From Providencia rettgeri (GTDB lineage Bacteria > Pseudomonadota > Gammaproteobacteria > Enterobacterales > Enterobacteriaceae), in the NCBI RefSeq assembly GCF_013702265.1, contig NZ_CP059348.1, positions 3,596,001 through 3,660,000 on the forward strand: DNA of 64,000 nucleotides, read 5' to 3'. The notes under the pieces are model-generated. The model saw nothing but the letters and a program-made list of their open reading frames with translations. It was not told the DNA's origin and searched no databases. Of the stretch, positions 13,676-42,562 are shown one piece after another (the first letter of the stretch is position 1; every line of letters begins with the position of its first letter). The position numbers were made by a program, and so were the translations under genes.

Positions 13676-13691
13676 TCGACACTTTTGACGA
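13676..13691 (+). promoter_or_regulatory. Putative FhlA-type activator site upstream of fdhF
   Basis: TCGACA-CTTT-TGACGA lies about 90 bp upstream of the -24 element. The same TCGACA-N4-TGWCGA pattern occurs upstream of hydN and of hyfA in this window, each with its own -24/-12 promoter. The assignment to the local FhlA-like activator is inference from this co-occurrence. Confidence 0.7.
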
Positions 13692-13781
13692 TTTCTTCTC
13701 CATTTAGCTTTTGTTTACTTTCCACCTAAAAATATTGTCTTTTTATTCAGTTAATTACAAATTCAGTCTTCGCTAAAAAAA

Positions 13782-13799
13782 CTGGCACAAACCCTGCAT
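13782..13799 (+). promoter_or_regulatory. Sigma-54 (-24/-12) promoter of fdhF
   Basis: CTGGCACAAACCCTGCAT carries the invariant GG and GC separated by exactly 10 bp, with a near-consensus TGGCAC. Transcription would start near 13808, about 45 bp before the start codon. Sigma-54 dependence of fdhF is established in E. coli. Confidence 0.88.
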
Positions 13800-13853
13800 T
13801 AGCTCTCTTGAAAGAGCGGGAAACCGCTACACAAAAATAGAGGAGCAATGTTG

Positions 13854-16001
13854 ATGGAAAAAGTCATCACCGTCTGCCCGTATTGCGCCTCAGGCTGTAA
13901 AATCAACCTGAAGGTGGAGAACGGGAAGATCATAGGCGCTGAAGGCGCAAATGGTCACACAAATGAAGGGGAGCTTTGCCTGAAAGGTTACTATGGCTGG
14001 GACTTCATTCATGACACTAAAATTTTAACGCCGCGTTTAAAAAACCCGATGATCCGCCGTCAACGTGGTGGCAAATTAGAGGCCGTTTCTTGGGAGGAAG
14101 CCATTGAATTTGCAAGCTCCCGTTTATTAGCCATCAAAGAAAAATATGGCCCAAAAGCCATCATGACGACAGGCTCTTCCCGCGGTCCGGGTAACGAAGC
14201 TAACTTCGTGATGCAGAAATTTGTTCGTGCAGCGGTCGGTAGTAACAATATCGACTGCTGTGCTCGTGTCTGACACGGCCCTTCGGTTGCAGGTCTGCAG
14301 CGTTCGGTCGGTAATGGCGCAATGAGCAACTCAATTGTTGAAATTGAGGATACCAAATGTATTTTTGTCTTCGGTTATAACGCCGCGGACTCACATCCTA
14401 TTGTCGCTCGCCGTATTTTAAAAGCGAAAGAGAAAGGGGCACAAATTATTGTCTGCGACCCGCGTTATATTGAAACCGCGCGTATTGCAGATATTCACTT
14501 ACCACTGAAAAACGGTTCGAATATCGCATTATTGAATGCGTTAGCCTACGTTATCATCGAGGAAAATCTGTATGACCATGCCTTTATCGAGGCACATACC
14601 GATAAATTCGACGAATATCGTGCATTAGTCGCGCCATACACACCTGAATCAGTTGAAGAGATCACCGGCATCAAAGCCGAGGATATCCGCAGAACCGCAC
14701 GGATGTACGCCAAAGCTGAAAATGCCACCATTTTATGGGGTATGGGTGTGACTCAGTTCTATCAAGGGGTGGAGACGGTTCAGTCTCTGACCAGCTTGGC
14801 ATTACTGACAGGCAACCTTGGCAAGCCGCATGTGGGTGTGGGTCCTGTACGTGGTCAAAATAACGTACAAGGTGCCTGCGATATGGGCGCATTACCAAAT
14901 ACGCTGCCGGGCTACCAGTATGTTTCAGATAAAGCGGCACTCGAGAAATTCGCCAAATTCTGGGGCATTGACGCAATGCCGGATGAAAATGGTATTCCAC
15001 TGAGTGAAGTCCCTCACTTTATCGATGAAGGCGTGCTGAAAGCACACTATGTGATGGGTGAAGATCCACTGCAAACAGAGCCGGATTTAGCAACGATCCG
15101 CCGCACGTTCGACAAACTTGAGCTGTTAATCGTGCAAGATATCTTTATGACTAAAACCGCGTCAATTGCAGACGTGATTTTCCCAGCCACTTCTTGGGGA
15201 GAACATGAAGGTGTTTATACGGCGGCTGACCGTGGTTTCCAACGCTTCTATAAAGCGGTAGAGCCTGTGGGTGATGTGAAAACTGACTGGGAAATCATCA
15301 GTTTAATGTCAACCGCAATGGGCTACCCAATGCACTACAACAACACCAAAGAAATTTGGGATGAGCTGCGTGAGCTTTGCCCGATTTATTTTGGTGCAAC
15401 TTACGAAAAAATGGCGGGCTTGGCATACATTCAATGGCCATGTCGTACATTAGAAAGTGAAGGCACTGAGTACCTGTATGAAGGTGGTAATTTCGATACA
15501 CCAAATGGTCGCGGTCAATTCTTCACTTGCGAATGGCGTCCACCAATCGACCAAGTCAGTGCTGAATACCCAATGGTTCTTGCCACCGTGCGTGAAGTGG
15601 GTCACTACTCTTGCCGCTCTATGACCGGTAACTGTAAAGCCCTAGCGTCTCTTGCTGACGAACCAGGTTTTGTTCAGATCAATACTGCCGATGCGAAAAC
15701 GTTAGGCATTAAAGATCAGGAACTGGTCTGGGTCTGTTCACGACAAGGTAAAGTCATCACTCGCGCCAATATCAGCGACCGCCCAAATAAAGGCGCCGTA
15801 TATATGACGTATCAGTGGTGGATTGGTGCTTGTAATGAACTGGTCGCCGAAAACTTAAGCCCGATAACCAAAACACCAGAATACAAATATTGTGCGGTGC
15901 GAGTTGAGCCAATCGCGGATCAACATCAAGCCGAGCATTATGTGGTTCAGGAGTATACGGGTATCAAACGTCGCTTACGTGAGGCGGCCGAAGGTTTATA
16001 G
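13854..16001 (+). CDS. fdhF: Formate dehydrogenase H, selenocysteine-containing
   Basis: FdhF is the formate-oxidising subunit of formate hydrogenlyase, binding a bis-MGD Mo cofactor and one [4Fe-4S] cluster. The in-frame TGA at 14271-14273 is selenocysteine 140, in the family context CCARV-Sec-HGPSVAG. With this start the protein is 715 residues with Sec at 140, the same as E. coli. CPYCASGCK near the N-terminus binds the cluster. The ATG at 13854 is preferred over 13848 because AGGAG lies 8 nt upstream and MEKVITVCPYC aligns with the E. coli start. A tool that reads TGA as stop will split it at 14273. It has a sigma-54 promoter and an activator site upstream. Confidence 0.96.
14271..14313 (+). 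promoter_or_regulatory. SECIS element of fdhF
   Basis: The stretch directly after the UGA contains GGTTGCAGGTCTGCA, the same apical stem-loop core as the E. coli fdhF SECIS (GCA-GGTC-TGC). SelB binds this hairpin and directs selenocysteine insertion. The lower part of the stem continues to about CGGTCGGTAATGG. Confidence 0.85.
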
Positions 16002-16014
16002 TTTGTTTTAACGC

Positions 16015-16065
16015 TTTGCACTGTAGGTATGCGTATATAAAGTAAACCTACAGTGCAAATTTATA
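16015..16065 (+). terminator. Large inverted repeat after fdhF, probable terminator
   Basis: TTTGCACTGTAGGT (16015-16028) and ACCTACAGTGCAAA (16046-16059) are perfect 14-bp inverted arms with a 17-nt loop, followed by TTTATATT. It lies 14 bp after the fdhF stop. Confidence 0.7.
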
Positions 16066-16198
16066 TTAAAAACGATATAGATTAAAATCCGTATAAAGAT
16101 AATAAACATCCCCATTCAACAAACGATTAAAATAAAATATTAATCGCCATTAAAAACTATTTAATAAAAAAATAACTTTCCAACAAAATAATCAACAT

Positions 16199-16262
16199 CC
16201 TTTATTTTTTACTTATTAACTTTCCTTTTTCCCATTTCTTTTTTCCCTTTCCTTTTTCCTTT
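16199..16262 (+). other. Polypyrimidine tract
   Basis: About 64 nt are almost entirely C and T on the plus strand, in an otherwise AT-rich gap between fdhF and the convergent regulator. No gene is visible in 16066-16289. Function unknown. Confidence 0.5.
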
Positions 16263-16289
16263 GCCAGCTTCTACCAATCTCTAAATAAT

Positions 16290-16430
16290 TCGCGTTGTGG
16301 CTAGGCGGCAAACGAAGATATCTCGGGGAGCATACATAAGTATGTGACCCGAGTATCACAGTGCGGCCAACAACGCCACAGCGTGAAGTATGACGAGATT
16401 AAGTATGACGAGATTAAGTATGACGAGATT
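16290..16430. repeat. Intergenic repeat-like element with hairpin and 3 x 15-bp tandem repeat
   Basis: A hairpin at 16322-16353 pairs CTCGGG with CCCGAG and CATAC with GTATG around an ATAA loop. It sits in GC-richer sequence unlike the surrounding AT-rich gap. Three exact tandem copies of AAGTATGACGAGATT follow at 16386-16430, the last overlapping the stop codon of the FhlA-like gene. It resembles the dispersed intergenic repeats of Yersinia and Morganellaceae, but I see no second copy in this window. Confidence 0.6.
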
Positions 16431-18024
16431 ACTGGAATAAATCTTGAACACTAACCCCCAATCTCTGCATCCTTGAAAGCAACGTCGTACGCTTCAACCC
16501 TAAACGAGCTGCCGCCCCTCTCGCCCCTGCAACCACCCCATTGGTGGCTTTCAGCGCTTCAATAATGCGGTTTCGCTCTTCATCATCGCTTTCTGGCGCA
16601 TCCGTCTGCATTTTTCGCTCTAATGAACTGGGCTTATTCAGGGCTTCTTTAATACGAGATGGTTTTGGGATATTTAGCTCATGCAATTGAATATTCAACG
16701 TATTCCCACGGGTTAAAATGACGGCACGTTCAATCACATTTTCCAGTTCTCGCACATTGCCCGGCCATGGATACAAGGATAGCTGCGCGAGAGCATCGCG
16801 AGGAATGCAATCAATTTTACGGTTCATACGCTGCGCCATTTTCTTGGTGAAATAGGTCGCGAGCAGCGGAATATCTTCTGGTCGGTCACGTAATGGCGGG
16901 ATCACAATCGGGAACACATTCAAACGATAATAGAGATCTTCACGAAACTCTCGGTCTTCCGTCATCGCCTTTAAGTTGCGATTGGTCGCCGCCACAAGGC
17001 GCACATCCACAGGGATAACTTTATTGCCACCAATGCGCTCAATCTCACGCTCTTGCAAAACACGCAATAATTTTGGTTGTAAATCCAATGGCATATCACC
17101 AATTTCATCTAAAAACAGCGTGCTTTTATCCGCCATTTCAAAGCGACCAATATGGGTGCTCGTCGCGCCGGTAAATGCGCCTTTATCATGCCCAAACAGG
17201 TCACTTTCCAGTAAACCCGTTGGGATTGCCGCACAGTTCATTTTAATCAGCGAGCGTTGGTGACGATGGCTAAGTTGATGAACGGCTCTGGCAATTAACT
17301 CTTTACCGGTGCCCGTTTCACCCAAGATGAGCACAGTGCTATCACTGCGAGCGACTAAATCCACTTGCTCCAATACTTCACGCATAGCCTGACTTTGGAA
17401 GACTATTTCGCTGAAACTATTGGTGTTTTGGATCTGTTCATTGAGCCATAAATTTTCATTTTTCAGGCTATCTTTGAGGCGAGTAATTTCACCATACGCT
17501 GCCGCATTGTCCACGGCTATCGCAAAGCGTGCCGCCACTTGTTTCAACAAAGTGCAGTTATCTTCGGTGAAAATATGGTCATCTTCATGGGATAATACCA
17601 AAACACCCAATGGCTTATGATTGAATGCCAACGGCAATAATAAGGTTTCCGTCATCCCTTCCGCGCACAGGTTTTGATACAGAGGGTCTTGAGTTTGACT
17701 ATCGAGCGTTAAGCGCAGCGGTTTGTTGCTCTCCAAGACTTGAGCGAGATCCGCATGCAGTTCATTAAGATGATACTGGCTTTTTTTAACCGGTTTTGAG
17801 CGTTGATAATGGCTTGAATAACAAAGATAAACCGCTGAACTGACATTATCACAAAGAGCAACGCTAATTTGGCTAATACCAAAAAATCGGTAAATTTCTC
17901 GCGAAACTTCAGCCACTAACCCATCCATTTCAAGATGAGAAAGCACTGAGTTAGTGATGTCCACAAGGATCCTGAATTGGTCACGTTCATGACGAATTTG
18001 TTCGGTGGTTTCGGATATGCTCAC
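16429..18024 (-). CDS. FhlA/HyfR-type sigma-54-dependent activator with one GAF domain
   Basis: This 531-residue enhancer-binding protein probably activates the formate hydrogenlyase genes around it. A single GAF sensor domain (about 20-172) precedes an AAA+ domain with Walker A GETGTGKE (235-242), the sigma-54 contact loop GAFTGA (282-287), Walker B LFLDEIGD, and arginine-finger and sensor motifs. A Fis-type helix-turn-helix closes the protein (RIIEALKATNGVVAGARGAA onward). E. coli FhlA (692 aa) and HyfR (670 aa) have an extra N-terminal GAF region that is absent here, so effector sensing may differ. It lies between fdhF and hydN and is divergent from hydN. The last tandem 15-bp repeat overlaps its stop. 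Confidence 0.9.
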   Translation of the reverse strand: MSISETTEQIRHERDQFRILVDITNSVLSHLEMDGLVAEVSREIYRFFGISQISVALCDNVSSAVYLCYSSHYQRSKPVKKSQYHLNELHADLAQVLESNKPLRLTLDSQTQDPLYQNLCAEGMTETLLLPLAFNHKPLGVLVLSHEDDHIFTEDNCTLLKQVAARFAIAVDNAAAYGEITRLKDSLKNENLWLNEQIQNTNSFSEIVFQSQAMREVLEQVDLVARSDSTVLILGETGTGKELIARAVHQLSHRHQRSLIKMNCAAIPTGLLESDLFGHDKGAFTGATSTHIGRFEMADKSTLFLDEIGDMPLDLQPKLLRVLQEREIERIGGNKVIPVDVRLVAATNRNLKAMTEDREFREDLYYRLNVFPIVIPPLRDRPEDIPLLATYFTKKMAQRMNRKIDCIPRDALAQLSLYPWPGNVRELENVIERAVILTRGNTLNIQLHELNIPKPSRIKEALNKPSSLERKMQTDAPESDDEERNRIIEALKATNGVVAGARGAAARLGLKRTTLLSRMQRLGVSVQDLFQ

Positions 18025-18326
18025 AAAATCTCCAATCTCGTCCTAACCCACTGCATTGCTAAGTCATTTATTTATTTTGCTGACTAACAATAATGAGAAT
18101 TAGTTAGAGTTTTAAATTTTCATTTATAAACGACTTATTTATCAATAATAAAAATAAAAAAGTTTAATAGTGTGATTAATGCGATTGCTGTTTTTGATTT
18201 AATACTAATATTGTAGTCATTATTTGAAAAAATAATATCGAAGTCTGATTTAAGTTTGATCCATTCACCTATTTTAGATATTGGTTGATTTAACCCAATA
18301 TCCGCTTAATACCGATTTCATGTCTC

Positions 18327-18342
18327 TCGACAATAATGTCGA
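18327..18342 (+). promoter_or_regulatory. Putative FhlA-type activator site upstream of hydN
   Basis: TCGACA-ATAA-TGTCGA is a perfect palindrome with 6-bp arms and a 4-bp spacer, about 95 bp upstream of the -24 element. It is the most symmetrical of the three copies in the locus. Confidence 0.75.
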
Positions 18343-18433
18343 AAGCCGTGTCGAATATGAAAAATCTATTTTTTCGTGATTATCCAATAATAACCAACTG
18401 ATTGATTTTATTGAATTAATTTATTTATCGAAT

Positions 18434-18450
18434 TTGGCACGATCCATGCT
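18434..18450 (+). promoter_or_regulatory. Sigma-54 (-24/-12) promoter of hydN-hypA-hypC
   Basis: TTGGCACGATCCATGCT has the invariant GG and GC exactly 10 bp apart and a consensus TTGGCACG -24 box. It lies about 85 bp upstream of hydN. Confidence 0.88.
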
Positions 18451-18534
18451 TATCTCTGAGTATTGTCAGCATAAGACGAGGCAACCGGAATAGACCGGAT
18501 CCCATGCCCGTTTACGATCATTCAGGAGAATATG

Positions 18535-19083
18535 ATGAACCGTTTCATCATTGCAGACCCAAAGAAGTGCATTGGCTGTCACACCTGTGAAGTGGCTTGT
18601 GTGGTCTCCCACCAAGAGCAAGAAACAGGGATTGCCACTGTTGTAAAAGATGAATTTTTTCCACGGATTCATGTGCTAAAAGGCTATACCGTCAGCACAG
18701 CGGTAGTGTGTCGTCAGTGCGAAGATGCCCCCTGCGCCAATGTATGCCCTAATGGCGCCATCAGCCGTAAAGATGATTTCGTGTACGTAGACCAATCTAA
18801 GTGTATTGGCTGCAAAACCTGTGTGATCGCTTGTCCTTACGGCACCATGGAAGTCATCAGCCGCCCCGTAGCTCAGCACACCACGGCACTCAATACCATT
18901 CCACAGTATCGTGCTGAGGCGCATAAATGCGACTTATGCCATACCCGTGAAGGTGGACCAGCTTGCGTAGAAGTCTGTCCAACAGAAGCCTTAATGATCG
19001 TCGACAGAAATAAAATGGATGAAATTATCAAAGAACGCCGCCGTCGCGCTGCCTTTGAAAATCCAGCGGATATTTTGTCTTAA
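18535..19083 (+). CDS. hydN: Electron-transfer 4Fe-4S protein HydN
   Basis: This 182-residue ferredoxin-like protein has four cysteine clusters (CIGCHTCEVAC, CRQCEDAPCANVCP, CIGCKTCVIACP and CDLCHTREGGPACVEVCP), enough for four [4Fe-4S] centres. In E. coli HydN is needed for full FdhH activity. The second of two ATGs is chosen because it is 6 nt from AGGAG and gives MNRFIIADPKKC, matching E. coli HydN. It is first in a hydN-hypA-hypC transcript under the sigma-54 promoter. Confidence 0.93.
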   Translation: MNRFIIADPKKCIGCHTCEVACVVSHQEQETGIATVVKDEFFPRIHVLKGYTVSTAVVCRQCEDAPCANVCPNGAISRKDDFVYVDQSKCIGCKTCVIACPYGTMEVISRPVAQHTTALNTIPQYRAEAHKCDLCHTREGGPACVEVCPTEALMIVDRNKMDEIIKERRRRAAFENPADILS

Positions 19084-19093
19084 GGAATGACAA

Positions 19094-19435
19094 ATGCATG
19101 AAGTTGCCTTATGCCAAAGCGCATTTGAGATTATTGAACAGCACGCTAAACGCAACCATGCTCGGCGGGTGACGGGTGTGTGGTTAGAACTCAGCGCCGT
19201 CTCTTGCGTAGAGGAATCCGCCGTGCATTTTTGTTTCGATATTATTTGCCGTAATACCCTCGCACAAGGTGCCGAATTACATATTGTGATTTCCCCTGCC
19301 CAAGCACAATGCCGAGATTGTCAGCATCAGGTACAAATAACTCAGTTTGGTGAAGGATGCCCCCACTGCGGCAGCCAAAATTTAATTGTCGACAGCACCA
19401 GCGCCATGCAAGTGAAGCAGATTGAAGTTGAATAA
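19094..19435 (+). CDS. hypA: Hydrogenase nickel-incorporation protein HypA
   Basis: This 113-residue nickel metallochaperone works with HypB to load Ni into the NiFe site of hydrogenase large subunits. The Ni-binding N-terminus MHE is intact, and the zinc site shows two pairs, CRDC and CPHC. It lies 10 bp after hydN, so it is co-transcribed. In E. coli hypA is followed by hypBCDE; here only hypC follows, so hypB, hypD and hypE must be elsewhere. Confidence 0.95.
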   Translation: MHEVALCQSAFEIIEQHAKRNHARRVTGVWLELSAVSCVEESAVHFCFDIICRNTLAQGAELHIVISPAQAQCRDCQHQVQITQFGEGCPHCGSQNLIVDSTSAMQVKQIEVE

Positions 19436-19453
19436 CCCGTTTAGGAGCCAGTT

Positions 19454-19726
19454 ATGTGTTTAGGTATTCCCGGTCAAGTGGTTGCCGTTGGTCAAACCCC
19501 TATGGATAGCGCCCAAGTGGATGTCTGTGGTGTCCAACGGGAAGTGAATATTGCCCTCGTCTGTGAAGGGGATACCGAGAGTATGGTCGGTAAATGGGTA
19601 TTAGTTCACGTCGGTTTCGCCATGAGTATTCTCGATGAAAAAGAAGCTAGAGATACCTTAGAAGCATTAATGGCAATGGAAGAAGTTGAAGAAGATGTAG
19701 GGTATTTTTTGCGAGGAAATGCGTGA
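19454..19726 (+). CDS. hypC: HypC/HybG-family hydrogenase maturation chaperone
   Basis: This 90-residue chaperone carries Fe(CN)2CO with HypD and docks on the precursor large subunit, here presumably HyfG. The essential N-terminal Cys2 is intact ([12 protein letters not shown]) and [16 protein letters not shown] is the family core. RBS AGGAG precedes it. It is the last gene of the hydN operon, followed by a hairpin terminator. Confidence 0.94.
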
Positions 19727-19781
19727 TAGCACGTGTTTATTCACCCCACAGCTTTTTGTATTTCGCACCTTTTTATACATC

Positions 19782-19816
19782 AAAAAAACCTGACACACTT
19801 TTGTGTCAGGTTTCAT
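19782..19816. terminator. Bidirectional terminator between hypC and maeA
   Basis: A perfect 12-bp stem (AAACCTGACACA / TGTGTCAGGTTT, 19786-19797 and 19802-19813) has a 4-nt loop. On the minus strand it runs into seven T, so it mainly ends the fumC-maeA transcript; the plus strand also ends in TTT. Confidence 0.9.
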
Positions 19817-19860
19817 TAATTACCGTTTTACTCAATCAAACTATCAATCACACTCTGTAA

Positions 19861-21654
19861 TTAGATAGCTTCAACTGGCACATAAACCGGCCACCAAGAT
19901 TGTGTTCTCACCATTTCGACTTCAGAATCACTGGCGTTAACCCCTGCTACGCCTTGGCTTTTCGCCATACGTAAAACAGCAAGAGCAACGATACTTGAAG
20001 TGATACGTAAATCTTCATTCGATGGTAATAACGATGCACCTTCTGAGCCTAATGTTGCTTGGCTTGCCACGGCTTGAACTGCGGCAAAAATCATTTCATC
20101 GGTAATTTTCGTGGCTTTCGACACGATAGCACCGAAACCTAGCCCCGGATAAAGCGCAGCGTTATTTGCCTGGCCGATTTTGTAGCAAACACCGTTATAA
20201 ATCACATCATCAAATGGCGCGCCCGTTGCAACAAACACTTTCCCTTCAGTCCATTCAATTAAATGCTGTGGTGTTGCTTCATGCAGTAATGTTGGGTTTG
20301 ATAATGGGAAAATAATTGGGCGTTCAACATGGCTTGCCATGCTGCGAACGATATCTTGAGTGAAAGCACCCGGTGTTGTTGATGTACCAATTAAAATCGT
20401 TGGTTTTACATTCTCGATAACCGTTGCTAAATCAATAATACCTTTAGCTTTATTCTGTTTCGCAAGGATATCCGCCATATCCGGCCAGCGGGTTTGTGCT
20501 TCAACAGAAACATCAACAATCTTTCTTGGATAATTGGCAACATCTTGGCTGTTTTTCGCATAATCTTTTTGGAAATACAGTAAGCTGTCTACCATGTCGG
20601 TGGTCAGTAGTCCCGGCAAGTCAATTAACCAAATGCGAGAAATGGCTTCTTCACGAGACAGACCACTGCGGATCATTTGGTCACGAATTTGGTCTGCAAT
20701 ACCGCAGCCCGCAGTTCCTGCACCAAAGATAACCACTTTTTGCTCAGTCCAAGGCGTTTTACTTAATTTCACCGCATTCAATAAGCCCGACAATACAATG
20801 GCACCCGTGCCTTGCACATCATCGTTAAATGTCGCGAAATTCGCTCTGTATTTATCCAAAATGCGACGCGCATTTGTTGAACCGAAATCTTCCCAGTGCA
20901 TAACTGCATTTGGAAATAACTTTCTTGCCGCTTTGACATAAGCATCAACAAAATCGTCATAGACTTTGCCTTGAATGCGCTCATGACGATTACCCACATA
21001 TGATGGGTCATTTAACAGTTTTTCATTGTTAGTCCCGACATCGAGAACAACAGGAATAACACTGTGAGGATCTACGCCCGCTGCAGCAGTATAAACAGCC
21101 AGCTTACCGACTGAAATATCGATACCATTAGAGCCCCAGTCTCCGATGCCTAAAATTTCTTCTGCGTCAGTGGTCACGATCAGTCGAATATCACCACCTT
21201 CAGCACCGAATGCACGCAGCTTTTCTTCGATTAATTCAGGTTCATTAATACTGAGGAAGATCCCGCGAGGACGAGTAATAATCTCGCTATAGTTTTCAAT
21301 GGCATCGCCGACAACTGGGTCATAAACGACTGGCAGCATTTCCAGCATATGACGTTGTAATAATGCATAAAATAATGTCACGTTATTATCGTGTAAACGC
21401 CACATGTAAATATGTTTATCTAAATCAGAATGGCATCCACGGTAAGCGTGATAAGCACGGTTTAATTGTGTTTCCATATCCTCAGTGACAACAGGAGGAA
21501 GAATACCATTTAAGTCCAGCGCTTTTCGTTCTTCTTCAGTAAAAGCCGTTCCTTTATTTAATGATGGATCGCGTAATACTTCATATCCTCTTGCAGTGGT
21601 TTTAATTTTACGAATGTTATTTTCCACAACAACTTTAGCTTGTCGATTATACAT
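19861..21654 (-). CDS. maeA: NAD-dependent malic enzyme (oxaloacetate-decarboxylating)
   Basis: This 597-residue enzyme converts malate to pyruvate, CO2 and NADH. Family motifs are intact: the catalytic Tyr region YHAYRG, VVTTDAEEILGIGDWGSNG-type metal and substrate residues, FNDDVQGTGAIVLSG, and the dinucleotide-binding VIFGAGTAGCGIADQI. It is somewhat longer than E. coli MaeA (565 aa). A malolactic enzyme has the same fold, but the length and C-terminus fit malic enzyme better. It follows the fumarase gene by 41 bp, so the pair would run fumarate to malate to pyruvate. Confidence 0.88.
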   Translation of the reverse strand: MYNRQAKVVVENNIRKIKTTARGYEVLRDPSLNKGTAFTEEERKALDLNGILPPVVTEDMETQLNRAYHAYRGCHSDLDKHIYMWRLHDNNVTLFYALLQRHMLEMLPVVYDPVVGDAIENYSEIITRPRGIFLSINEPELIEEKLRAFGAEGGDIRLIVTTDAEEILGIGDWGSNGIDISVGKLAVYTAAAGVDPHSVIPVVLDVGTNNEKLLNDPSYVGNRHERIQGKVYDDFVDAYVKAARKLFPNAVMHWEDFGSTNARRILDKYRANFATFNDDVQGTGAIVLSGLLNAVKLSKTPWTEQKVVIFGAGTAGCGIADQIRDQMIRSGLSREEAISRIWLIDLPGLLTTDMVDSLLYFQKDYAKNSQDVANYPRKIVDVSVEAQTRWPDMADILAKQNKAKGIIDLATVIENVKPTILIGTSTTPGAFTQDIVRSMASHVERPIIFPLSNPTLLHEATPQHLIEWTEGKVFVATGAPFDDVIYNGVCYKIGQANNAALYPGLGFGAIVSKATKITDEMIFAAVQAVASQATLGSEGASLLPSNEDLRITSSIVALAVLRMAKSQGVAGVNASDSEVEMVRTQSWWPVYVPVEAI

Positions 21655-26355: not shown

Positions 26356-26367
26356 GGTGTCCCTCCG

Positions 26368-28101
26368 TTATTTCATAATCGAATGTTTGCGCTCGATACT
26401 GTGCTGTTCGAGCTCTTTGTACGCGACAGTTTTCGCTTTGCGTTTTTTCACATCCACCAGCGTCACGCGGTCAGTACAGGAGTAACAAGGGTCAAGGCTA
26501 CCGATAATCAATGGCGCATCGGAAACGGTGTTGCCTTGCAGCATATAGCGCAGCACTGGCCAGTTCGCGTAAGTGGCAGCACGGCAACGCCAGCGATACA
26601 GTTTTTGGTTATCGCCGAGCATGCTCCAGTGAACATCTTCACCTCGCGGCGCTTCGGTATAGCCCAGTGCAAATTTATGGGGCTGATAGGTAAAGCCTTC
26701 CGTCAGAATTGGGCCTTCTGGCATATTGTCGAGGGCATATTCAATCATCGACAGAGAGTCCAATGTCTCTTTAATGCGTACCATCACGCGGGAATAAACA
26801 TCGCAACCATCTAAGGTGAATAAGGTTTTTGGTAAATTGCCGTAGTCCGCAAATGAGTGGTCGAAACGCACATCGCGCTTGAAGCCGCTGGCGCGGATCA
26901 TCGGTCCCACAGGGCTGTAATCACGAGCAACTTGTGGATCGAGGCGGCCGACGCCGACGGTACGCTGCTCCATATTTGGTGTACTCAGCAACATGTCCAC
27001 CAGCTGAGTTACATCTTGGCGCATCTCTTTAACCAGCTGAATGGTTTTCACGCGCTGCTCTTTCAAGAAGTCACGACGAACCCCACCAATTAAGTTGGTA
27101 CCGTAAGTTTTACGGGCGCCTGTCAGTAATTCCGCCATAGTCATGGATTTTTCACGGACACGGAAAAACTGCATGAAACCGGTATCAAAACCGGTGAAGT
27201 GGCTCGCTAAGCCGATATTCAGCAAGTGGCTGTGTAGACGTTCCACTTCCAGTAATACGCTACGAATAGTGTGAGCGCGTTGAGGCACATAAATACCCAG
27301 CGCATTTTCCACAGAGGTGGTGTATGCCACGCTGTGGGTGAAGCCGCAAATGCCGCATACGCGGTCAGATAAGAAAGTGACTTCGTTGTAGCCCATGCGG
27401 GTTTCAGCCAATTTTTCCATCCCGCGGTGCACGTAGAACATACGGTAGTCCGCATCCACAATGCGCTCGCCATCCACAAACAGGCGGAAGTGTCCCGGTT
27501 CATCGGACGTGATATGCAGCGGACCAATTGGCACGATGCGGCTTTGGGTTTTGCTGTCGTTGATAAACTCGTAGGTTTCTGTGTCGGTGGTTGGCGCTGG
27601 GCGCTGACGGTAATCCATAGTGTCTTTACGCAGCGGATACAGGTCTTCCGGCCAATCATCCGGCAGCACTAAGCGGCGCTCATCCGGCAAGCCCACCGGA
27701 CGTAAACCGTACATATCACGGATTTCACGCTCTCCCCACACAGCCGCAGGCACCCGTGGCGTTACAGATGGGAACTCTTGGGTGATTGGACTGACATACG
27801 CTTTCACCGTTACCCAGCATTTTTCTCCCTCTTCCATCGACAGTGCGTAATAAACTGCAAACTGCCCATTGAGAGGACGTTCATCGTTCCCCCACAACAC
27901 CGGCAACCAACCGCCGCAGCCGTAATAGAGGAATTCCACCACGTCTGGCAGCATCTCAGTTTTGACGGTAATGGTGACTTGGTTAGCTGTTTGCCACTCC
28001 TCTTCCAGCATGGCATGAGGAAATTTCTCGCGCACTTTTGCCAGATAGCCCGCGCCTTTGCGAACGCCCTGAAGGGTATCTGTATAATTCTGATAGCTCA
28101 C
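26368..28101 (-). CDS. hyfG: Hydrogenase-4 NiFe large subunit HyfG (NuoCD-like)
   Basis: This 577-residue catalytic subunit combines a NuoC-like N-terminal domain (to ~170) and a NuoD-like NiFe domain. The Ni ligands are RVCGICGFTHS and DPCYSC. A 32-residue tail follows TDR (VTLVDVKKRK to the end), equal in length to the HycE tail removed by HycI, so this is a protease-processed precursor. The protease domain lies in the last gene of the same operon. Its start is 1 bp from the hyfF stop. Confidence 0.95.
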   Translation of the reverse strand: MSYQNYTDTLQGVRKGAGYLAKVREKFPHAMLEEEWQTANQVTITVKTEMLPDVVEFLYYGCGGWLPVLWGNDERPLNGQFAVYYALSMEEGEKCWVTVKAYVSPITQEFPSVTPRVPAAVWGEREIRDMYGLRPVGLPDERRLVLPDDWPEDLYPLRKDTMDYRQRPAPTTDTETYEFINDSKTQSRIVPIGPLHITSDEPGHFRLFVDGERIVDADYRMFYVHRGMEKLAETRMGYNEVTFLSDRVCGICGFTHSVAYTTSVENALGIYVPQRAHTIRSVLLEVERLHSHLLNIGLASHFTGFDTGFMQFFRVREKSMTMAELLTGARKTYGTNLIGGVRRDFLKEQRVKTIQLVKEMRQDVTQLVDMLLSTPNMEQRTVGVGRLDPQVARDYSPVGPMIRASGFKRDVRFDHSFADYGNLPKTLFTLDGCDVYSRVMVRIKETLDSLSMIEYALDNMPEGPILTEGFTYQPHKFALGYTEAPRGEDVHWSMLGDNQKLYRWRCRAATYANWPVLRYMLQGNTVSDAPLIIGSLDPCYSCTDRVTLVDVKKRKAKTVAYKELEQHSIERKHSIMK

Positions 28102-28102
28102 G

Positions 28103-29683
28103 TTATTTCTCCTGCGATGAAGGTTCGGAGGTGCTTACACCCCACGGCCATTGATAATTTAAGGTGGTAATTTGGTGGTCGACTGTCGCACTATCTTTGA
28201 GCACGATTGTCGCGGCATTTTCCAGTAAGCGGCTGACAGGCTGAGGAATATAAGTCCCCATCACCAGCATCAGTACAATCAAAATCGCCATCGGTAATGT
28301 GGTTAAAATGCCCAGCTCACCACGCGCTACGCACTCTGGTTGTTCGCCAAATAAGGTTTTGGAGATCATGCGGATCAACCCGCCCAGCACTACCGTAATC
28401 AAGATCAGCACCAGCAAGGTTAACCAGAAATGGTTAGCGACCAGCCCCGCCACCACAATCATAAATTCACTTAAAAAGACGTTGAATGGCGGCATACCAC
28501 CCAGAGCTAATGCACCGCCCGCAAATACCACCGCGGTAAATGGCATAGTGCGCAGTAACCCTTTCACCACCGTAATATCGCGAGTGCCATATTTCAGTAA
28601 CACGTTACCGGAACCGCAGAACAGCAAGGTTTTACCCAAACTGTGGTTTAAGGTATGCAGCAGCGCGGCCAGTACACCTAAAGGCCCACCGATACCTAAT
28701 GCCACCGCGATCAGCCCCATGTTTTCCACACTGGAGTAGGCCAGCAAACGTTTCATATCTTTTTGTACCAAGATAAAAAACGCAGCCACCGCGACGGACA
28801 TTAATCCGAACACCAACAATAAGGTTTGCGTAAATTCGCCACCAATTGATGAAGTGACGATGATGTAGTAACGGATGATAATCAGCAGTGCGCAGTTGAG
28901 CAGCACCGCAGACAGCAACGCCGAAGTTGGGCTTGGTGCCTCACTGTGCGCATCAGGTAACCAGGCGTGCATTGGGAAAAGACCGGTTTTGGTACCAAAA
29001 CCGATTAACACAAACACAAAGGCAAGATGCATCAAGGTTGGATCGAGAAGGTCGGTATATTTCAGGACTTCCGTCCAGAAAATAGCCATTTCAGGATCCG
29101 GCATGACATTCACCGCATTGGCATACACTAAAATGGTGCCAAACAGACCAAACGCCACACCTACGCTACAGATAATGATGTATTTCCATGCCGCTTCCAG
29201 TGAAGAACGTTGACCATAAATGCCCACTAAGAACGCGGAGCTTAAGGTGGTCGCTTCGACCGCCGCCCACATTAAGATCAGGTTATTACTGGTGATCACC
29301 AGCAACATAGTGAACAGGAATAAGTGGAAGAAACCATAATAGTTACATAAGGTTCCAACACTAATTTCCCCTTCATGCACTTCATGGTTCATATAACCGA
29401 TAGAGTACAAGCCAGTCAGGAAGCCGACGATCCCTAAGATAGCGAGGAATAACCCGGCAAGGCTATCAAGGTGGATCCAGTGACCTGCCATCAGCAAATC
29501 ACCGACTTTATCTATCGTGCCAACCATCCAGATCGATAACACTAGCAATGCCGTGATCCCAATGGTATGGATCAGAGTGACAGGGATTTTTGCACCGTTA
29601 CCCAATAAGCGGCAGGCGAACGCCAGCAGTGAAATCACCAGCGGGGTTGCCATCAATAAGGTTAATAACATTGTTTGACTCAT
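28103..29683 (-). CDS. hyfF: Hydrogenase-4 membrane subunit HyfF (Complex I antiporter-like)
   Basis: This 526-residue integral membrane protein matches the length of E. coli HyfF. About 13-14 hydrophobic helices include the antiporter core ([36 protein letters not shown]). It has the Lys and Glu residues expected for proton translocation in NuoL/M/N-type subunits. HyfF and HyfD are what distinguish hydrogenase-4 from hydrogenase-3. Confidence 0.93.
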
Positions 29684-29687
29684 CTCA

Positions 29688-30338
29688 TCACCCCTTCAGC
29701 GCGGTCAGTTGATCCACGTTCAGTGTGTTGAGCGTGCGATAAATTTTACGAGCCAATACCGCCATAATGATCACCGCAAAAATGGCGTCTGTGGCGATAC
29801 CAATTTCCACCAGCTCAGGGGCTTTATACGCCAGTAACGCGAGGGTCAGATGGGAGCCGTTTTCCATGAGGCAGTAACCAAAGGCTTGCTTGAGAATATT
29901 GCGTTGAGTGACGATACACAGCAGCCCCAACATAAAGTGCCCAAGAGAAACCGCTAAAGCGGGTTTTAAATCCGCTGCCAGTGGCAATTTAATTGGCTCG
30001 ACCACAAACCAGCACAGCACCACAATCACCGCTGCCGCTAACATCAACCAAGCTGGGCTAATCACCCCGCCGTTAGCGGTTGGGTCGGACAATTTGCGGA
30101 AGGCGTAGCCCATAATCAGCGGCACTAACACCACTTTAGTGGCGAACGCGGTACCTGCCCACATTGCCAATTCAGGGGCGTTGAGGGTGTAAGATAACGT
30201 GCCGAAAATCGCCACTAACACCAGCGACTGCAACGCATAGAACCAACAAGAGACCACCGGCTTTTTCGCGCCGATCACCAGCAGCGACGTGATCATCATC
30301 AGCCCTGCTAAATTATTTACAATCATTGAACCAGTCAT
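29688..30338 (-). CDS. hyfE: Hydrogenase-4 membrane subunit HyfE
   Basis: This 216-residue membrane protein has about 6-7 hydrophobic helices and a short charged C-terminus ([21 protein letters not shown]). Its length equals E. coli HyfE, which is NuoK-like in its C-terminal half. It sits 4 bp before hyfF. Confidence 0.92.
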
Positions 30339-30350
30339 GCTTTCTCTCCC

Positions 30351-31793
30351 TTAACCGAGCCAGATGACGGCGATAACACTAGAACAGAAGGACATTACGA
30401 TCAGTAAGCCAATAACCCACTGCATTGCCCAAGGAACTGCGCTGCCGTTTGCCACTTCTTCGCTAGGTTCACCCGGAACCACTTTGCCGAACCAGTACAG
30501 CAACCATGCAAAGCTCGCGACAGATTCAATCAGTACCAACACCATAATTGGCGTTAACACCCAGAACTGTTCAGACAGCGCGAAGCCCGCTGCAAAGATA
30601 GGAAATTTACTGAAGAAACCGTTAAGTGGTGGAACACCCGCAATGGCCAGTGCCGCCACACAGAAGCCCACACCGAGTAATGGGTAGCGCTTTGCCAAAC
30701 CGCGTAAGCGTGGCAGCATACGGGTACCGCAGCTATAACTCAGCGCGCCCGCCACTAAGAAGAACAGGCTTTTCGCAAATGCGTGGTTGAAGATATACGC
30801 GATACCGCCATCGAAGGCTTCTTTGGAACCGAAAACGGATAAGGATAAAGCGAGGAAGATATACGCCAGCTGCGTGATGGTTGACCATGCCAGCAGACGT
30901 TTCATATCTTTCTGCGGCAGATACATCATAAAGCCATACACCAGTGTGATGACCGCCATCACGACACCCACCCAACCTATAATTTCTGGCACATGGGTGG
31001 AAGACATCAAGCCACGGGCAAAGATATACACACCCACTTTCACCATGGAGGCGGCGTGTAAGTAAGCACTAACTGGGGTTGGGGCTTCCATCGCATCGGG
31101 TAGCCAGGCTTGCAGTGGTAACTGGGCTGATTTACCCCATGCTGCAAACAGAATACCGCCAAACACGATCAGGCTTTGGGATTCACTCAAGCGGTCAATG
31201 GCGCTCAGAGCAAAGGTTCCGGTGCTGATAAACAGAGTTGCCGCCGCCATGTATAAGCCGAGTGAGCCAACATGGGTAATGAGCAACGCTTTCATCGCTG
31301 AACGCTGGGATTTTTCAGTTTGGTAGTAACCAATGAGCGCCCAAGAACATCCACCGGTAATTTCGAAGAACACCAATTGCCCTAAGATAGTGGAAGAGAG
31401 CACAACCCCTGCCATCGCACCGATAAAGATTAGCAAGAAAGCGTAATAACGGCGAGTTGGCCCATGAGCGTGTTCGCGGTTTCCTTCAGTGAGATACCCC
31501 GTTGAATAGAGGCAAATCAAGAAGCCAAGGAACACCACAGCAAACGCAATCAGCGTGCTGACGCCATCCACAGTAAAACCGAACAGCGCGACATCGCCTG
31601 TCTGGATTAACTCCAGTGTAGTGGCGACCTTGCCACCGTCTAAATAGAGCCAGCCTAATGCTGCCGTTCCCAAAGACGCCAGTAAGGCAACTAAGGTACT
31701 TAGCCACGGCGCTAGACGGGTGGGTAGCACACTGACCAGCAACGCCCCGATGAACGGGATTATCAAGGTTGCTAGTGCAATATTTTCTAACAT
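30351..31793 (-). CDS. hyfD: Hydrogenase-4 membrane subunit HyfD (Complex I antiporter-like)
   Basis: This 480-residue NuoL/M/N-like protein carries SAQLPLQAWLPDAMEAPTPV and [16 protein letters not shown]. The start at 31793 (MLENIALATLI) is preferred over an in-frame start 57 bp upstream: AAGGAG lies just ahead of it, the protein then matches E. coli HyfD (479 aa), and the longer version would overlap hyfC. Confidence 0.92.
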   Translation of the reverse strand: MLENIALATLIIPFIGALLVSVLPTRLAPWLSTLVALLASLGTAALGWLYLDGGKVATTLELIQTGDVALFGFTVDGVSTLIAFAVVFLGFLICLYSTGYLTEGNREHAHGPTRRYYAFLLIFIGAMAGVVLSSTILGQLVFFEITGGCSWALIGYYQTEKSQRSAMKALLITHVGSLGLYMAAATLFISTGTFALSAIDRLSESQSLIVFGGILFAAWGKSAQLPLQAWLPDAMEAPTPVSAYLHAASMVKVGVYIFARGLMSSTHVPEIIGWVGVVMAVITLVYGFMMYLPQKDMKRLLAWSTITQLAYIFLALSLSVFGSKEAFDGGIAYIFNHAFAKSLFFLVAGALSYSCGTRMLPRLRGLAKRYPLLGVGFCVAALAIAGVPPLNGFFSKFPIFAAGFALSEQFWVLTPIMVLVLIESVASFAWLLYWFGKVVPGEPSEEVANGSAVPWAMQWVIGLLIVMSFCSSVIAVIWLG

Positions 31794-31806
31794 GCTTCGT
31801 CGCTCC

Positions 31807-32757
31807 TTATAGACCGGTGAGGTAGAAGACGAATCCGAGTGCCGCAACACCGAATCCTAACCAAGTCACATGGTGCGTTAATAAGAAACGACCACGAGCC
31901 AGACTGTTTTCGACCAGCGACGCCAGCACGAAAATCACCAATAATTTCACTAGCATTAATCCCATCGCTAACAGCACACTGCCAACAGTAAAGACTCCGG
32001 CATTGCCGAATGGGAAGAAAATCGACAGGAACAGAACCGCAACGACCACTTGTTTCAGGCCAATGCCCAGTTTCACCATCGCGAATCCTGAACCGGAGTA
32101 TTCGGTTAATGGACCTTCTTGCAGCTCTTGCTCCGCTTCCGCCACGTCGAATGGGATTTTGCCCATCTCAATAAATGTCGCGAATCCGCAAGCGAGTAGC
32201 GCTAATAACGTGGCAGTTGGAGACACCCAGCCTTCACTCATCGTGGCGCTGATGGTGCCAATATTGGTGGAGCCAGCGATCAGAGCTACGACTAGCAAGC
32301 CGAGGAATAACGTCGGTTCCACCAGTACGCCAAGTGTCAGTTCACGGCTGGCACCGATGCCCGCAAATGGGCTGCCCGTATCGAGGCCGGAAAGTGAGAA
32401 GAAAAAGCGGAATAACGCGAAGATATACAGCACGATAATGATGTCGGCTGCGCCACTAAACAGTGATGTGTTCGTGACCACTGGCAACGCCATCGCTAGC
32501 AGCAACATGCTGCCCAGCAGCACATACGGCATGATGCGAAAGATAATGCCAGAATCACGCGGCGCGACGGATTGACGTGTCAGTAGCTTGGTAATATCAC
32601 GATAATCCTGCCAAATACCAGGGCCTTGGCGGGAATGCATTTTGGCGCGAATTTGACGGGAGATCCCTGTGAACAGCGGCGTCAGCAACAGTAAAACCAC
32701 GGCTTGAACGACGGCGAAGATCCCTGTCATCAATGTGGGTGTTTCTTGAATCGACAT
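31807..32757 (-). CDS. hyfC: Hydrogenase-4 membrane subunit HyfC (NuoH-like)
   Basis: This 316-residue NuoH-like membrane subunit probably anchors the hydrophilic arm. Motifs include KMHSRQGPGIWQDYRDI and FDVAEAEQELQEGPLTEYSG, the acidic loop of NuoH proteins. The start MSIQETPTLMTG is supported by AAGGAGAG directly upstream and agrees with E. coli HyfC (315 aa). A longer in-frame version to 32853 would overlap hyfB and adds unrelated residues. Confidence 0.93.
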   Translation of the reverse strand: MSIQETPTLMTGIFAVVQAVVLLLLTPLFTGISRQIRAKMHSRQGPGIWQDYRDITKLLTRQSVAPRDSGIIFRIMPYVLLGSMLLLAMALPVVTNTSLFSGAADIIIVLYIFALFRFFFSLSGLDTGSPFAGIGASRELTLGVLVEPTLFLGLLVVALIAGSTNIGTISATMSEGWVSPTATLLALLACGFATFIEMGKIPFDVAEAEQELQEGPLTEYSGSGFAMVKLGIGLKQVVVAVLFLSIFFPFGNAGVFTVGSVLLAMGLMLVKLLVIFVLASLVENSLARGRFLLTHHVTWLGFGVAALGFVFYLTGL

Positions 32758-32768
32758 GGTTTCTCTCC

Positions 32769-34784
32769 TTACGCCGCAATCACAACAAGCAACACGATCA
32801 AGGCCGCGACCACATACAGGCAGTAGAGCCTGAAGTCCCCGCCTTGCAGGCATTGCATGCGTTTTGCTATTCGGTTAATCACACGAACCAATGGGTAGAT
32901 AATTTTCTCATCCCAGAACGGTTCCACCTTCCCTGCTCCCTCTTTCGTCACTTCTAAGGTTTGCGCTAAACGCGCTGAAGGGTCGAGCTGAGTACGCAGG
33001 CGATACAGCGGTGCAAACATAGAACGCAGCGGCTGAGTAAAGCCTCCCGCGGACACGGACATCTCTTTTTCCCATGCATAACCACACGCCCAAGCATCCC
33101 CTTTACGGCGCGCTTCGAGCTGTTTGCCTTTAAATACCATGTAGATAATCAGTGGAATGATAGGCAGTGCGAGCAACAGGATCAGCGTCATGGCTGGAGA
33201 GATCATCGCTTGAGACGCGCTGTTTGGAACTAGCATCGCTCCTTGTGCCACGGTGATATCGGTGGCGTGTGTCAGGGACATTGCCACGTTGGCTAAAACC
33301 GGAGCGATATAGGTCGCGCCTACCCCTAAAATCACGCAGATAGCCGCTAAAATCAGCATCGCGGCGGTCATTGTCCATGGCACTTCGCGAGCATGAGTGG
33401 CTTGCTCACTGCGAGCACCTCCACAAAAACTGACGCCGTACACTTTCACAAAACACATTGCCGCCAAGGCCCCGGTGATGGCTAACATCACAATGGCGAT
33501 TGGGCCGCTGATGCGCATAATAAAAGTGCCTTCATGGCTCATGGAGAATAAAGATTGGTAGGTATACCACTCACTAACAAAGCCGTTGAGTGGTGGCAGC
33601 GCGGAAATCGCCATACAGCCGATTAAAAACGCGGTTGCGGTCAGTGGCATTAATTTGGCTAAGCCACCCATTTTTTCCATATCGCGGGTATGCACACGGT
33701 AGATCACGGCGCCCGCCCCAAGGAACAGTAAGCCTTTGAATACGGCGTGGTTAAGTAAGTGGTAAATCGCACCGAGCAGACCAATGGTTGCCAACACAGG
33801 CATATTGTTTGCCATGCCAACCATCGCCACACCGACACCCATCAGGATAATCCCGATATTTTCGACGGTGTGCCAAGCCAGTAAGCGTTTGATATCGTGC
33901 TCAGCCAGTGCATACATAACCCCAAGAACCGAGGAGACTGCACCGAATGCCAGCACCACAATGCCCCACCAGCCTTGAGTGGCGCCGAGTAAGTCGATAC
34001 CTACTTTGATGATCCCAAAGATACCGATTTTTACCATGACGCCGGACATTAATGCTGATGCGTGAGATGGTGCTGCGGGGTGAGCTTGCGGTAACCAGCT
34101 GTGCAGTGGGAGCATCCCTGCTTTGGCACCAAATCCAAAAAATCCCAATAAGAAAACGATGGATGCCATCGCCGGTGAAAGCGAAAGCTGGCGGAAGGAG
34201 TCGAAATCTAAGCTGCCACTTTCACGCCACATTAAGAAGAAGGCGATCATAATTAAAATCGAACCGGCGTGGGCAATAAAGAAGTACAGCAGACCCGCGC
34301 GGATAGATTTGTCATCTTGGTCGGCAATGACTAAGAACCAAGAGGCTAGCGACATCATTTCAAACAGGATGATGAAGTAGAAGGCGTTGTCCATCACCAC
34401 CAAGGCGACCATCGAGGCGATAAACAGGTTCAGGAAGAATCCCATGCTCCACGCGCCACGACCGCAATATTCCTGAACATAGTTTAAGGAATAGAGGGCA
34501 CTGACAGTCACCAGTAGCGAAATCACCATCACCATAAAGGCGGCGAGGCTATCTAATCGGACGACAAAGTTGGCAAACGGGAATGGGCCTTGCGACAGGT
34601 AAGTGAGTACTTCGCCACTCATTAGCACCGGAATAGAGCTGCATAAGCCTAGAACGCCGCCGATCATGGCTGAAATTCCCGCGACATAAATGGCGAGCTT
34701 TTCTTGGCGTTTAAAGAGCAACGAGACAAAGCCACCCACCGCGTAGAAAATCACCGACCATAAAAGTAACTGAAGAGGTGTCAT
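32769..34784 (-). CDS. hyfB: Hydrogenase-4 membrane subunit HyfB (NuoL-like)
   Basis: This 671-residue antiporter-like subunit is almost identical in length to E. coli HyfB. Core motifs are GAKAGMLPLHSWLPQAHPAAPS and EHDIKRLLAWHTVENIG, followed by a long C-terminal extension (from ~560) ending in hydrophobic LYVVAALIVLLVVIAA. Its ATG overlaps the hyfA stop as TAATG. Confidence 0.94.
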   Translation of the reverse strand: MTPLQLLLWSVIFYAVGGFVSLLFKRQEKLAIYVAGISAMIGGVLGLCSSIPVLMSGEVLTYLSQGPFPFANFVVRLDSLAAFMVMVISLLVTVSALYSLNYVQEYCGRGAWSMGFFLNLFIASMVALVVMDNAFYFIILFEMMSLASWFLVIADQDDKSIRAGLLYFFIAHAGSILIMIAFFLMWRESGSLDFDSFRQLSLSPAMASIVFLLGFFGFGAKAGMLPLHSWLPQAHPAAPSHASALMSGVMVKIGIFGIIKVGIDLLGATQGWWGIVVLAFGAVSSVLGVMYALAEHDIKRLLAWHTVENIGIILMGVGVAMVGMANNMPVLATIGLLGAIYHLLNHAVFKGLLFLGAGAVIYRVHTRDMEKMGGLAKLMPLTATAFLIGCMAISALPPLNGFVSEWYTYQSLFSMSHEGTFIMRISGPIAIVMLAITGALAAMCFVKVYGVSFCGGARSEQATHAREVPWTMTAAMLILAAICVILGVGATYIAPVLANVAMSLTHATDITVAQGAMLVPNSASQAMISPAMTLILLLALPIIPLIIYMVFKGKQLEARRKGDAWACGYAWEKEMSVSAGGFTQPLRSMFAPLYRLRTQLDPSARLAQTLEVTKEGAGKVEPFWDEKIIYPLVRVINRIAKRMQCLQGGDFRLYCLYVVAALIVLLVVIAA

Positions 34785-35401
34785 TATGGGTTCTCCCGAT
34801 CAGCAACAAAAATGTCGAACTCTGGCGGCATGGCATCGACAGATGCGCTGCGGCGTTTGGCACTTTCGTTTTCGAGTTGGTGTTCTTCCACCAGATGGAG
34901 GGCATCGGTTGGGCAGACTTTGACACAAGCTGGCCCTTCGTCACTGAAATCACACAGGTCACACTTCACGGCGATATTGCGAATTCCCGCATTCCACGCA
35001 AGGAAAGGATTCATGGTTGGAAGGCTATCTGGCACATCTAATAGCATCTCTTTTGGAACATATTGTTCAAAGAAATCAGGCATATTGACCGGTTTGCTGC
35101 CTGATGGTGTAATCGCCCCAAATGGGCACACCAAGCCACACAGTTTGCAACCAATGCACAGGCTTTCATTCAGCACAATCATGTCATTTTCGTGGGTGAT
35201 GGCATTGACCGGACACACACGCGCACACGGGGCATCGTCACATTGACGACAGAGCATCGGTGCGGTTAGCTCGCCAACTTTGACCACCTTTAGTCGCGGA
35301 TATGTTTGTAATCCTTGGGCTTTATGCGTTTCTGAGCACGCCGCCATGCAAGTGTTACATCCGATACACAGTTGTGGGTCTGCAATTACAAAGCGATTCA
35401 T
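34784..35401 (-). CDS. hyfA: Hydrogenase-4 ferredoxin-like subunit HyfA
   Basis: This 205-residue protein has four [4Fe-4S] cysteine motifs (CIGCNTCMAAC, CRQCDDAPCARVCP, CIGCKLCGLVCP and CDLCDFSDEGPACVKVCP). It probably links FdhF to the HyfH/HyfI chain. It is the same length as E. coli HyfA and is first in the operon. RBS GGAGG is 9 nt upstream, and a sigma-54 promoter and an activator site precede it. Confidence 0.94.
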   Translation of the reverse strand: MNRFVIADPQLCIGCNTCMAACSETHKAQGLQTYPRLKVVKVGELTAPMLCRQCDDAPCARVCPVNAITHENDMIVLNESLCIGCKLCGLVCPFGAITPSGSKPVNMPDFFEQYVPKEMLLDVPDSLPTMNPFLAWNAGIRNIAVKCDLCDFSDEGPACVKVCPTDALHLVEEHQLENESAKRRSASVDAMPPEFDIFVADRENP

Positions 35402-35454
35402 TCGCTTTCCCCTCCAATAAAATCAGTCGGATCTTAAGTTTGTTGCAGACACCT

Positions 35455-35472
35455 AAGCATTTTTTGTGCCAG
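35455..35472 (-). promoter_or_regulatory. Sigma-54 (-24/-12) promoter of the hyf operon
   Basis: Read on the minus strand, CTGGCACAAAAAATGCTT has GG and GC exactly 10 bp apart. It lies about 55 bp upstream of hyfA. Confidence 0.85.
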
Positions 35473-35521
35473 AAATAATATTGTTATTTATCAGTTGGTT
35501 GGAGTTTTGTGGGGTGGGAGC

Positions 35522-35537
35522 TCGACAGTAATGACGA
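35522..35537 (-). promoter_or_regulatory. Putative FhlA-type activator site upstream of hyfA
   Basis: TCGACA-GTAA-TGACGA (plus-strand reading) lies about 50 bp upstream of the -24 element. It differs from the fdhF copy only in the 4-bp spacer. Confidence 0.7.

Positions 35538-38424: not shown

Positions 38425-42562
<4,138 letters not shown>

Follow-up and report, generated by a model that had tools for sequence, protein, structure and literature searches.

The closest described systems include HyfR of Escherichia coli and of Pectobacterium atrosepticum and the FhlA-controlled formate regulons of E. coli and Proteus mirabilis. In P. mirabilis, three promoters were tested, and those of hyf and fdhF require fhlA and rpoN, their inducers being reported as formate and anaerobiosis, "respectively", and that of fhlA is independent of both RpoN and FhlA (PMC7658346). 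In E. coli FhlA, the N-terminal region preceding the AAA+ domain comprises residues 1–381 (about 380 residues), and a preprint links E183 and E363 to formate binding, the part of the protein that senses formate being still under study (PMC11291172). Here we analyzed a 64,000-nucleotide stretch of the Providencia rettgeri genome (contig NZ_CP059348.1, positions 3,596,001 to 3,660,000; hereafter the window), in which a gene for an FhlA/HyfR-type activator lies among three operons, headed by fdhF, hydN and hyfA, that carry the same palindrome upstream.

The palindrome, TCGACA-N4-TGWCGA, is present in three exact copies, TCGACACTTTTGACGA upstream of fdhF (13676–13691), TCGACAATAATGTCGA upstream of hydN (18327–18342) and TCGACAGTAATGACGA upstream of hyfA (35522–35537), at the very positions where a sequence-only reading of this DNA had placed it. 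The sigma-54-type −24/−12 elements with exact GG-N10-GC spacing announced by the same reading are there as well: TGGCACAAACCCTGCA for fdhF (13783–13798, plus strand), TGGCACGATCCATGCT for the hydN-hypA-hypC operon (18435–18450, plus strand) and TGGCACAAAAAATGCT for the hyf operon (35456–35471, minus strand), each with one mismatch to the consensus used. Between palindrome and promoter element we measured 91 base pairs (bp) for fdhF, 92 bp for hydN and 50 bp for hyfA, in line with the 50–95 bp that had been given. The hydN copy had been called a perfect palindrome, which holds for its 6-bp arms, perfectly complementary to each other, but not for its 4-bp spacer ATAA. A third half-site, TGTCGA, follows it (18349–18354, plus strand), starting 12 bp past the start of the second arm and forming with that arm a one-mismatch palindrome at 18339–18354.

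Very probably, the consensus TCGWCA-N4-TGWCGA is where a single FhlA/HyfR-type activator binds upstream of the operons of the formate hydrogenlyase regulon. For P. rettgeri itself, we infer binding by the activator, formate sensing and dependence on sigma-54, and the P. mirabilis promoter work backs them (PMC7658346).

The genome-wide search proposed in the sequence-only reading found the exact pattern at only three places in 4,023,756 bp, all of them the fdhF, hydN and hyfA promoters. Allowing one mismatch, the number of matches (24 forward and 18 reverse) was at the level of the reversed pattern used as control (23 and 15). These matches add 24 places to the three exact ones. One of the 24, at 18339, overlaps the hydN copy, and 21 of the other 23, all inspected, fall within open frames of more than 150 amino acids. 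None of the 23 had a promoter-like element of the quality of the three (17 places were examined up to three mismatches and six up to two). Elements with two mismatches occurred at two places, both within open frames (L015, L235), and elements with three mismatches at three (L007, L008, L009), while the two places outside the long frames (L010, L237) had none. Further regulon members among the one-mismatch sites of the P. rettgeri genome were rejected for want of a comparable promoter-like element. Within the window, the excess of three-mismatch matches over shuffles is partly due to an 18-bp periodic stretch (41103–41568) inside an open frame of 1141 amino acids (39137–42562), which holds 32 of the 137 matches.

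The genus provides a natural test. Among 24 genomes, 15 encode the activator (E ≤ 1e-150), one of them in broken form (G086). Where the activator is intact (14 genomes), three or more exact palindromes always lie no farther than 50 kb from it, one of them within 300 bp before fdhF, whereas the nine genomes lacking the activator have zero or one palindrome and, at the thresholds applied, neither HyfG nor FdhF gave a match in them. On average, there were 3.47 palindromes per genome with the activator (n = 15) versus 0.44 without it (n = 9), compared to 0.87 and 1.11 for the reversed control. The claim of one FhlA-type regulon is supported in the genus, where the palindrome tracks both the genes and the activator, as well as in other genera, E. 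coli and Photobacterium (see below).

The palindrome also follows fdhF when the gene lies apart from the activator. In G152, fdhF is 38 kb away and still has its palindrome and promoter-like element. Two genomes (G165 and G164) carry a second fdhF that is 64% identical, has no in-frame stop and scores, in G165, 905.5 against a cut-off of 666.25 for the Fdh-alpha model. A fourth exact palindrome starts 145 bp (G165) or 142 bp (G164) before the second-fdhF match; in G165, a sigma-54-type element starts 75 bp further on, and in G164, the palindrome and the second fdhF are 2.5 Mb from the activator on the contig.

In G086, which is labeled as belonging to the same species, the match to the broken activator starts only at residue 50 and contains one stop (L223, C1:3392000–3411900). 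The activator remnant is bordered by a pair of IS3-family transposase genes, with a phage-type integrase gene further on. No match was found in this genome for hydN, hyfA or hyfG, and the 5′ part of fdhF is duplicated along with its palindrome. G086 is a natural loss of the formate hydrogenlyase system.

Beyond the genus, 149 genomes of the family were searched, of which 57 carry the activator, and the 30 best activator matches were used for footprinting the 400 bp before hydN (29 regions), fdhF (30) and hyfA (30). These 89 regions represent 30 of the 57 activator-bearing genomes (27 are left out, as are L162, which is an additional hydN-like locus in G039, and any second copies without a fetched locus). 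The palindrome was exact in 43 regions and present with at most one mismatch in 68. It was best kept before hydN (exact in 18 of 29, at most one mismatch in 27) and hyfA (18 and 26 of 30), and less so before fdhF (7 and 15 of 30). Control arrangements (reversed, gap-3, gap-5, swapped and direct-repeat) gave zero to three over the same regions, and dinucleotide shuffles about zero. When 4-bp half-sites were counted in all spacings and orientations, the outward arrangement GWCA-N4-TGWC came first with 69 occurrences, followed by two direct spacings (36 each) and the inward N0 arrangement (32), which are partly by-products of neighboring palindromes.

Raw counts over whole genomes pointed the same way. 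The 57 activator-bearing genomes had 207 palindromes versus 162 for the reversed control, and 40 genomes of at least 2 Mb lacking the activator had 74 versus 102 (the 52 smaller genomes of the 149 were excluded). Taken alone, such family-wide counts are weak, because they are only modestly above the control; the contrast with the activator-lacking genomes is clearer.

In E. coli K-12, an exact palindrome precedes hydN, and one-mismatch forms precede fdhF, hyfA and hycB. A scan with the activator also gave at least 80 distant loci, 80 of which (1.22 Mb) were examined for the palindrome, a sample of distant relatives only that holds little information on close kin; the highest identity to the activator among the distant loci listed was 45% over nearly the whole length (L021). 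Among these listed loci, the palindrome is exact only in Photobacterium chitinilyticum, where it precedes a hydN-like gene whose score of 224.4 bits stays under the HydN cut-off of 260. Its 16-mer is identical to the fdhF site of the window, a sigma-54-type element lies 130 bp further on, and the locus has the best-matching activator among the matches listed.

The activator gene (16429–18024, minus strand) lies between fdhF and hydN. Its product of 531 amino acids contains a GAF domain (44 bits, residues 34–171), an AAA+ sigma-54 interaction domain (Sigma54_activat, 243 bits) with the GAFTGA motif at 282 and a Fis-type helix-turn-helix (HTH_8, 25.5 bits). Its alignment with E. coli FhlA begins at FhlA residue 178, with seven residues of the activator preceding that position. 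The N-terminal extension, which in E. coli FhlA comprises about 170 residues, is thus missing, and no remnant of it was found by tblastn with five N-terminal queries in positions 16001–20000 of the window. In E. coli, a second, diverged GAF lies in the N-terminal extension of FhlA. We considered describing the activator as "single-GAF" to set it apart from E. coli FhlA and rejected this, as Pfam detects one GAF each in E. coli FhlA and HyfR, the same one that is kept here, preceded by about 200 residues in FhlA and about 170 in HyfR. The residues aligned to FhlA E183 and E363 are both glutamate in the activator (E13 and E190), and E. coli HyfR has D at the position matching E183.

The sequence-only reading had called this activator FhlA-type, which is right in the broad sense, but the protein groups with HyfR and has no N-terminal extension. 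Its alignment score is higher with HyfR (1458) than with FhlA (1365), and the FhlA equivalog model NF011958 gives 685.5 bits, under its cut-off of 830, matching profile positions 177–691 only. A midpoint-rooted tree of 43 rows has the activator and E. coli HyfR together on a side of 17 rows and E. coli FhlA on the opposite side of 26 rows (support 98/97); in the seven genomes with both copies in the tree, one copy falls on each side. By these criteria, the activator is best classified as a member of the FhlA/HyfR family belonging to the HyfR clade, and not as FhlA sensu stricto. Other short forms are those of G089 and G078 and, from two other genera, those of G003 and G138 (L128, L129). As the latter two sit on the FhlA side of the tree, the shortening seems to have occurred more than once. 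No sigma-54-type site for the activator gene itself was found on the minus strand between 18024 and 18532 with up to two mismatches, a region searched as a check for self-regulation.

From this set of parts, a mechanism can be proposed. Formate would bind the retained GAF region of the activator, and an activator dimer would sit on the palindrome with one helix-turn-helix per TGWCGA half-site, the two about one helical turn apart. As an oligomer, the activator would then reach the sigma-54 RNA polymerase waiting at the −24/−12 promoters 50–92 bp downstream and would spend ATP to start transcription of fdhF, of hydN-hypA-hypC and of hyfA to hyfI with hycHI. Formate accumulating without oxygen would thus switch on formate dehydrogenase H together with hydrogenase-4 and some of the maturation proteins.

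The palindrome could instead be the site of another regulator that acts jointly on the three operons, such as a sensor of oxygen, nitrite or metal, with the activator binding elsewhere; we regard this as improbable. The motif is a simple outward palindrome, the type used by many dimeric regulators. Co-absence alone does not separate such a regulator from the activator, because the activator and the genes vanish together, but the motif accompanies the activator and its genes, and the nine-letter helix-turn-helix segment KRTTLLSRM is near-invariant (of 43 relatives from both clades, 39 have it unchanged and four differ by one letter), which favors the activator as the binding protein. The distances between palindrome and sigma-54 element also seem to cluster with a period near one helical turn: the best period over 34 distinct values was 11.3 bp, and 1 of 5000 uniform draws scored as high, though this is only suggestive, as the analysis omitted four distances of more than 170 bp and the result is inflated by common descent.

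The published FhlA matrix bears on the same question in two ways (PMC7658346, Table 2). The half-site TGWCGA fits its first six columns, which speaks for an FhlA-type protein at the palindrome, but the matrix arranges the same half-sites differently, and this leaves some room for another regulator. The arrangements suggested by the matrix were less frequent in our half-site count (inward N6, 12 occurrences; direct N5, 15). On the window, the best scores of the matrix in the three regions were 10.9, 13.2 and 7.7 (log-odds, flat background), compared to 65 sites scoring at least 9 over the window and a best score of 16.9 outside the three regions. The sequence-only reading had likened the motif to the TGTCG/TGACA half-sites of E. 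coli FhlA; the half-sites do match published ones, but their arrangement is unlike that of this matrix.

Slightly less probable still is a partial regulon, in which only one or two of the promoters respond to the activator and hydN or hyfA is under another sigma-54 activator. The hyfA site is nearer to its promoter than the others (50 versus 91–92 bp), and other sigma-54 activators exist in this genome (21 first-look candidates, of which 9 were scored in one search and 21 in the other). The P. mirabilis study covers the hyf, fdhF and fhlA promoters, and hydN appears nowhere in its main text (PMC7658346). On the other hand, the same operator is found at all three promoters, and only one FhlA/HyfR copy is present at E ≤ 1e-150. 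Chance or shared ancestry, for example leftovers of one duplicated promoter region, is hardly credible even though the motif was picked after looking, as chance is rejected by the genome-wide uniqueness, the shuffles and the conservation, spacers and flanks are unlike among the three promoters, and other genera, Photobacterium included, retain the site even though its arms vary at the W letters.

Several observations weigh against a single operator shared by all the promoters and bound by the FhlA/HyfR-type activator. Only 56 of the 89 regions of relatives pass the strict −24/−12 rule, 51 of them also with a palindrome. Half of the fdhF regions (15 of 30) have no palindrome; in 13 of these, fdhF immediately follows a hydN or hydN-like gene on the same strand and could use the promoter of that gene, but the other two (L178 and L184) are not behind hydN and are true misses. 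At one mismatch, the palindrome is also absent from two of the 29 hydN regions (L138, L149) and four of the 30 hyfA regions (L206, L207, L212, L213). In the 14 intact genomes of the genus, six other palindromes are unexplained, a number no higher than the reversed control would give (13 in 15 genomes). In E. coli, the palindrome of hydN is not accompanied by an element passing the strict rule, and the hycA-hypA intergenic region has no palindrome within two mismatches, so that the palindrome is not the sole form of the site.

The genes of the three operons jointly encode a formate hydrogenlyase of the hydrogenase-4 type, an enzyme system that converts formate to hydrogen gas. The fdhF gene for formate dehydrogenase H (13848–16001, plus strand; Fdh-alpha model) has a selenocysteine codon at position 142 (TGA, 14271–14273), with a selenocysteine insertion sequence (SECIS) element over and behind it (14266–14320, plus strand; Rfam RF01988 SECIS_2, 79.1 bits, gathering score 70). 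The hydN operon consists of hydN, an electron-transfer iron-sulfur protein gene (18532–19083, 282.6 bits for a cut-off of 260), the nickel insertion gene hypA (19094–19435) and a hypC/hybG-type chaperone gene (19454–19726), all on the plus strand, with hypA and hypC above the cut-offs of their family models. On the minus strand, hyfA (34784–35401) is the first gene of the hydrogenase-4 operon, followed by hyfB to hyfI (25025–34784). HyfB, HyfD, HyfE, HyfF and HyfH are above the cut-offs of their family models, and hyfA, hyfC, hyfG and hyfI were placed through related subunit models and their position. The operon ends with an open frame of 335 amino acids (24025–25032, minus strand) in which homologs of the assembly protein HycH and the maturation protease HycI are fused, both above the cut-offs of their family models. 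The maturation genes hypB, hypD and hypE and a second hypA are in a hyb cluster about 280 kb away (L232), where no palindrome was found at one mismatch within 19.9 kb.

Two further features of the surroundings can be mentioned. A gene for a bifunctional ornithine lipid synthase OlsF (11830–13548, minus strand; 837.9 bits, cut-off 620) is divergent to fdhF and has the upstream region in common with it. The stretch of about 880 bp that separates fumC from the hyf operon end (23145–24024) is visibly A+T-rich, with no listed open frame of 80 amino acids or more.

The circuit is of a known kind. What appears new lies in the details, namely a one-activator version built on a HyfR-clade protein without N-terminal extension and an operator sharper than the matrix of PMC7658346, which does not single out these sites of the window. 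Literature searches on an FhlA box, binding site, consensus or palindrome returned no such site besides that of PMC7658346, the original site definitions being outside their coverage, and the operator may have been described earlier elsewhere. Whether a single extension-less activator of the HyfR clade controls the entire formate regulon of this lineage and still answers formate is, in our judgment, evenly balanced. If it does, formate sensing in the FhlA/HyfR family would reside in the GAF region that is retained, to which E183 and E363 belong, the N-terminal extension would be dispensable (a separate branch, G003 and G138, has short forms too), and the outward TCGWCA-N4-TGWCGA would be the true operator of both FhlA and HyfR, old enough for Photobacterium to share it. 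With the naturally shortened activators, the formate-sensing part of FhlA can be sought directly. The sharp operator also allows formate hydrogenlyase regulons to be recognized in bare sequence; in two genomes, extra copies lay before a second fdhF.

Compared to the FhlA/sigma-54 formate regulon of E. coli (fdhF, hyc, hyp and hydN-hypF), the P. rettgeri locus encodes the same kind of enzyme system and has the same kind of upstream half-sites, and −24/−12 elements are likewise found in E. coli at fdhF, hyfA, hycA and hypA. It differs in having one activator, which is of the E. coli HyfR clade and lacks the N-terminal extension that the 670-residue HyfR of E. coli possesses. It also has hyf genes for hydrogenase-4 and no hyc operon in the window, to which this search was confined, and hydN is followed by hypA and hypC instead of hypF. 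The P. mirabilis study proposes an inward-facing arrangement of the half-sites, whereas the palindrome described here faces outward, and the paper does not raise the matter of a short activator (PMC7658346). Still, its numbering of the GAFTGA residues as F291/T292 would mean that the FhlA tested there was short too (PMC7658346). In G078, a protein 69% identical to our activator has GAFTGA at 289 from its Met, giving the same F291/T292, and the FhlA of P. mirabilis and the short activator of P. rettgeri may therefore be of one type.

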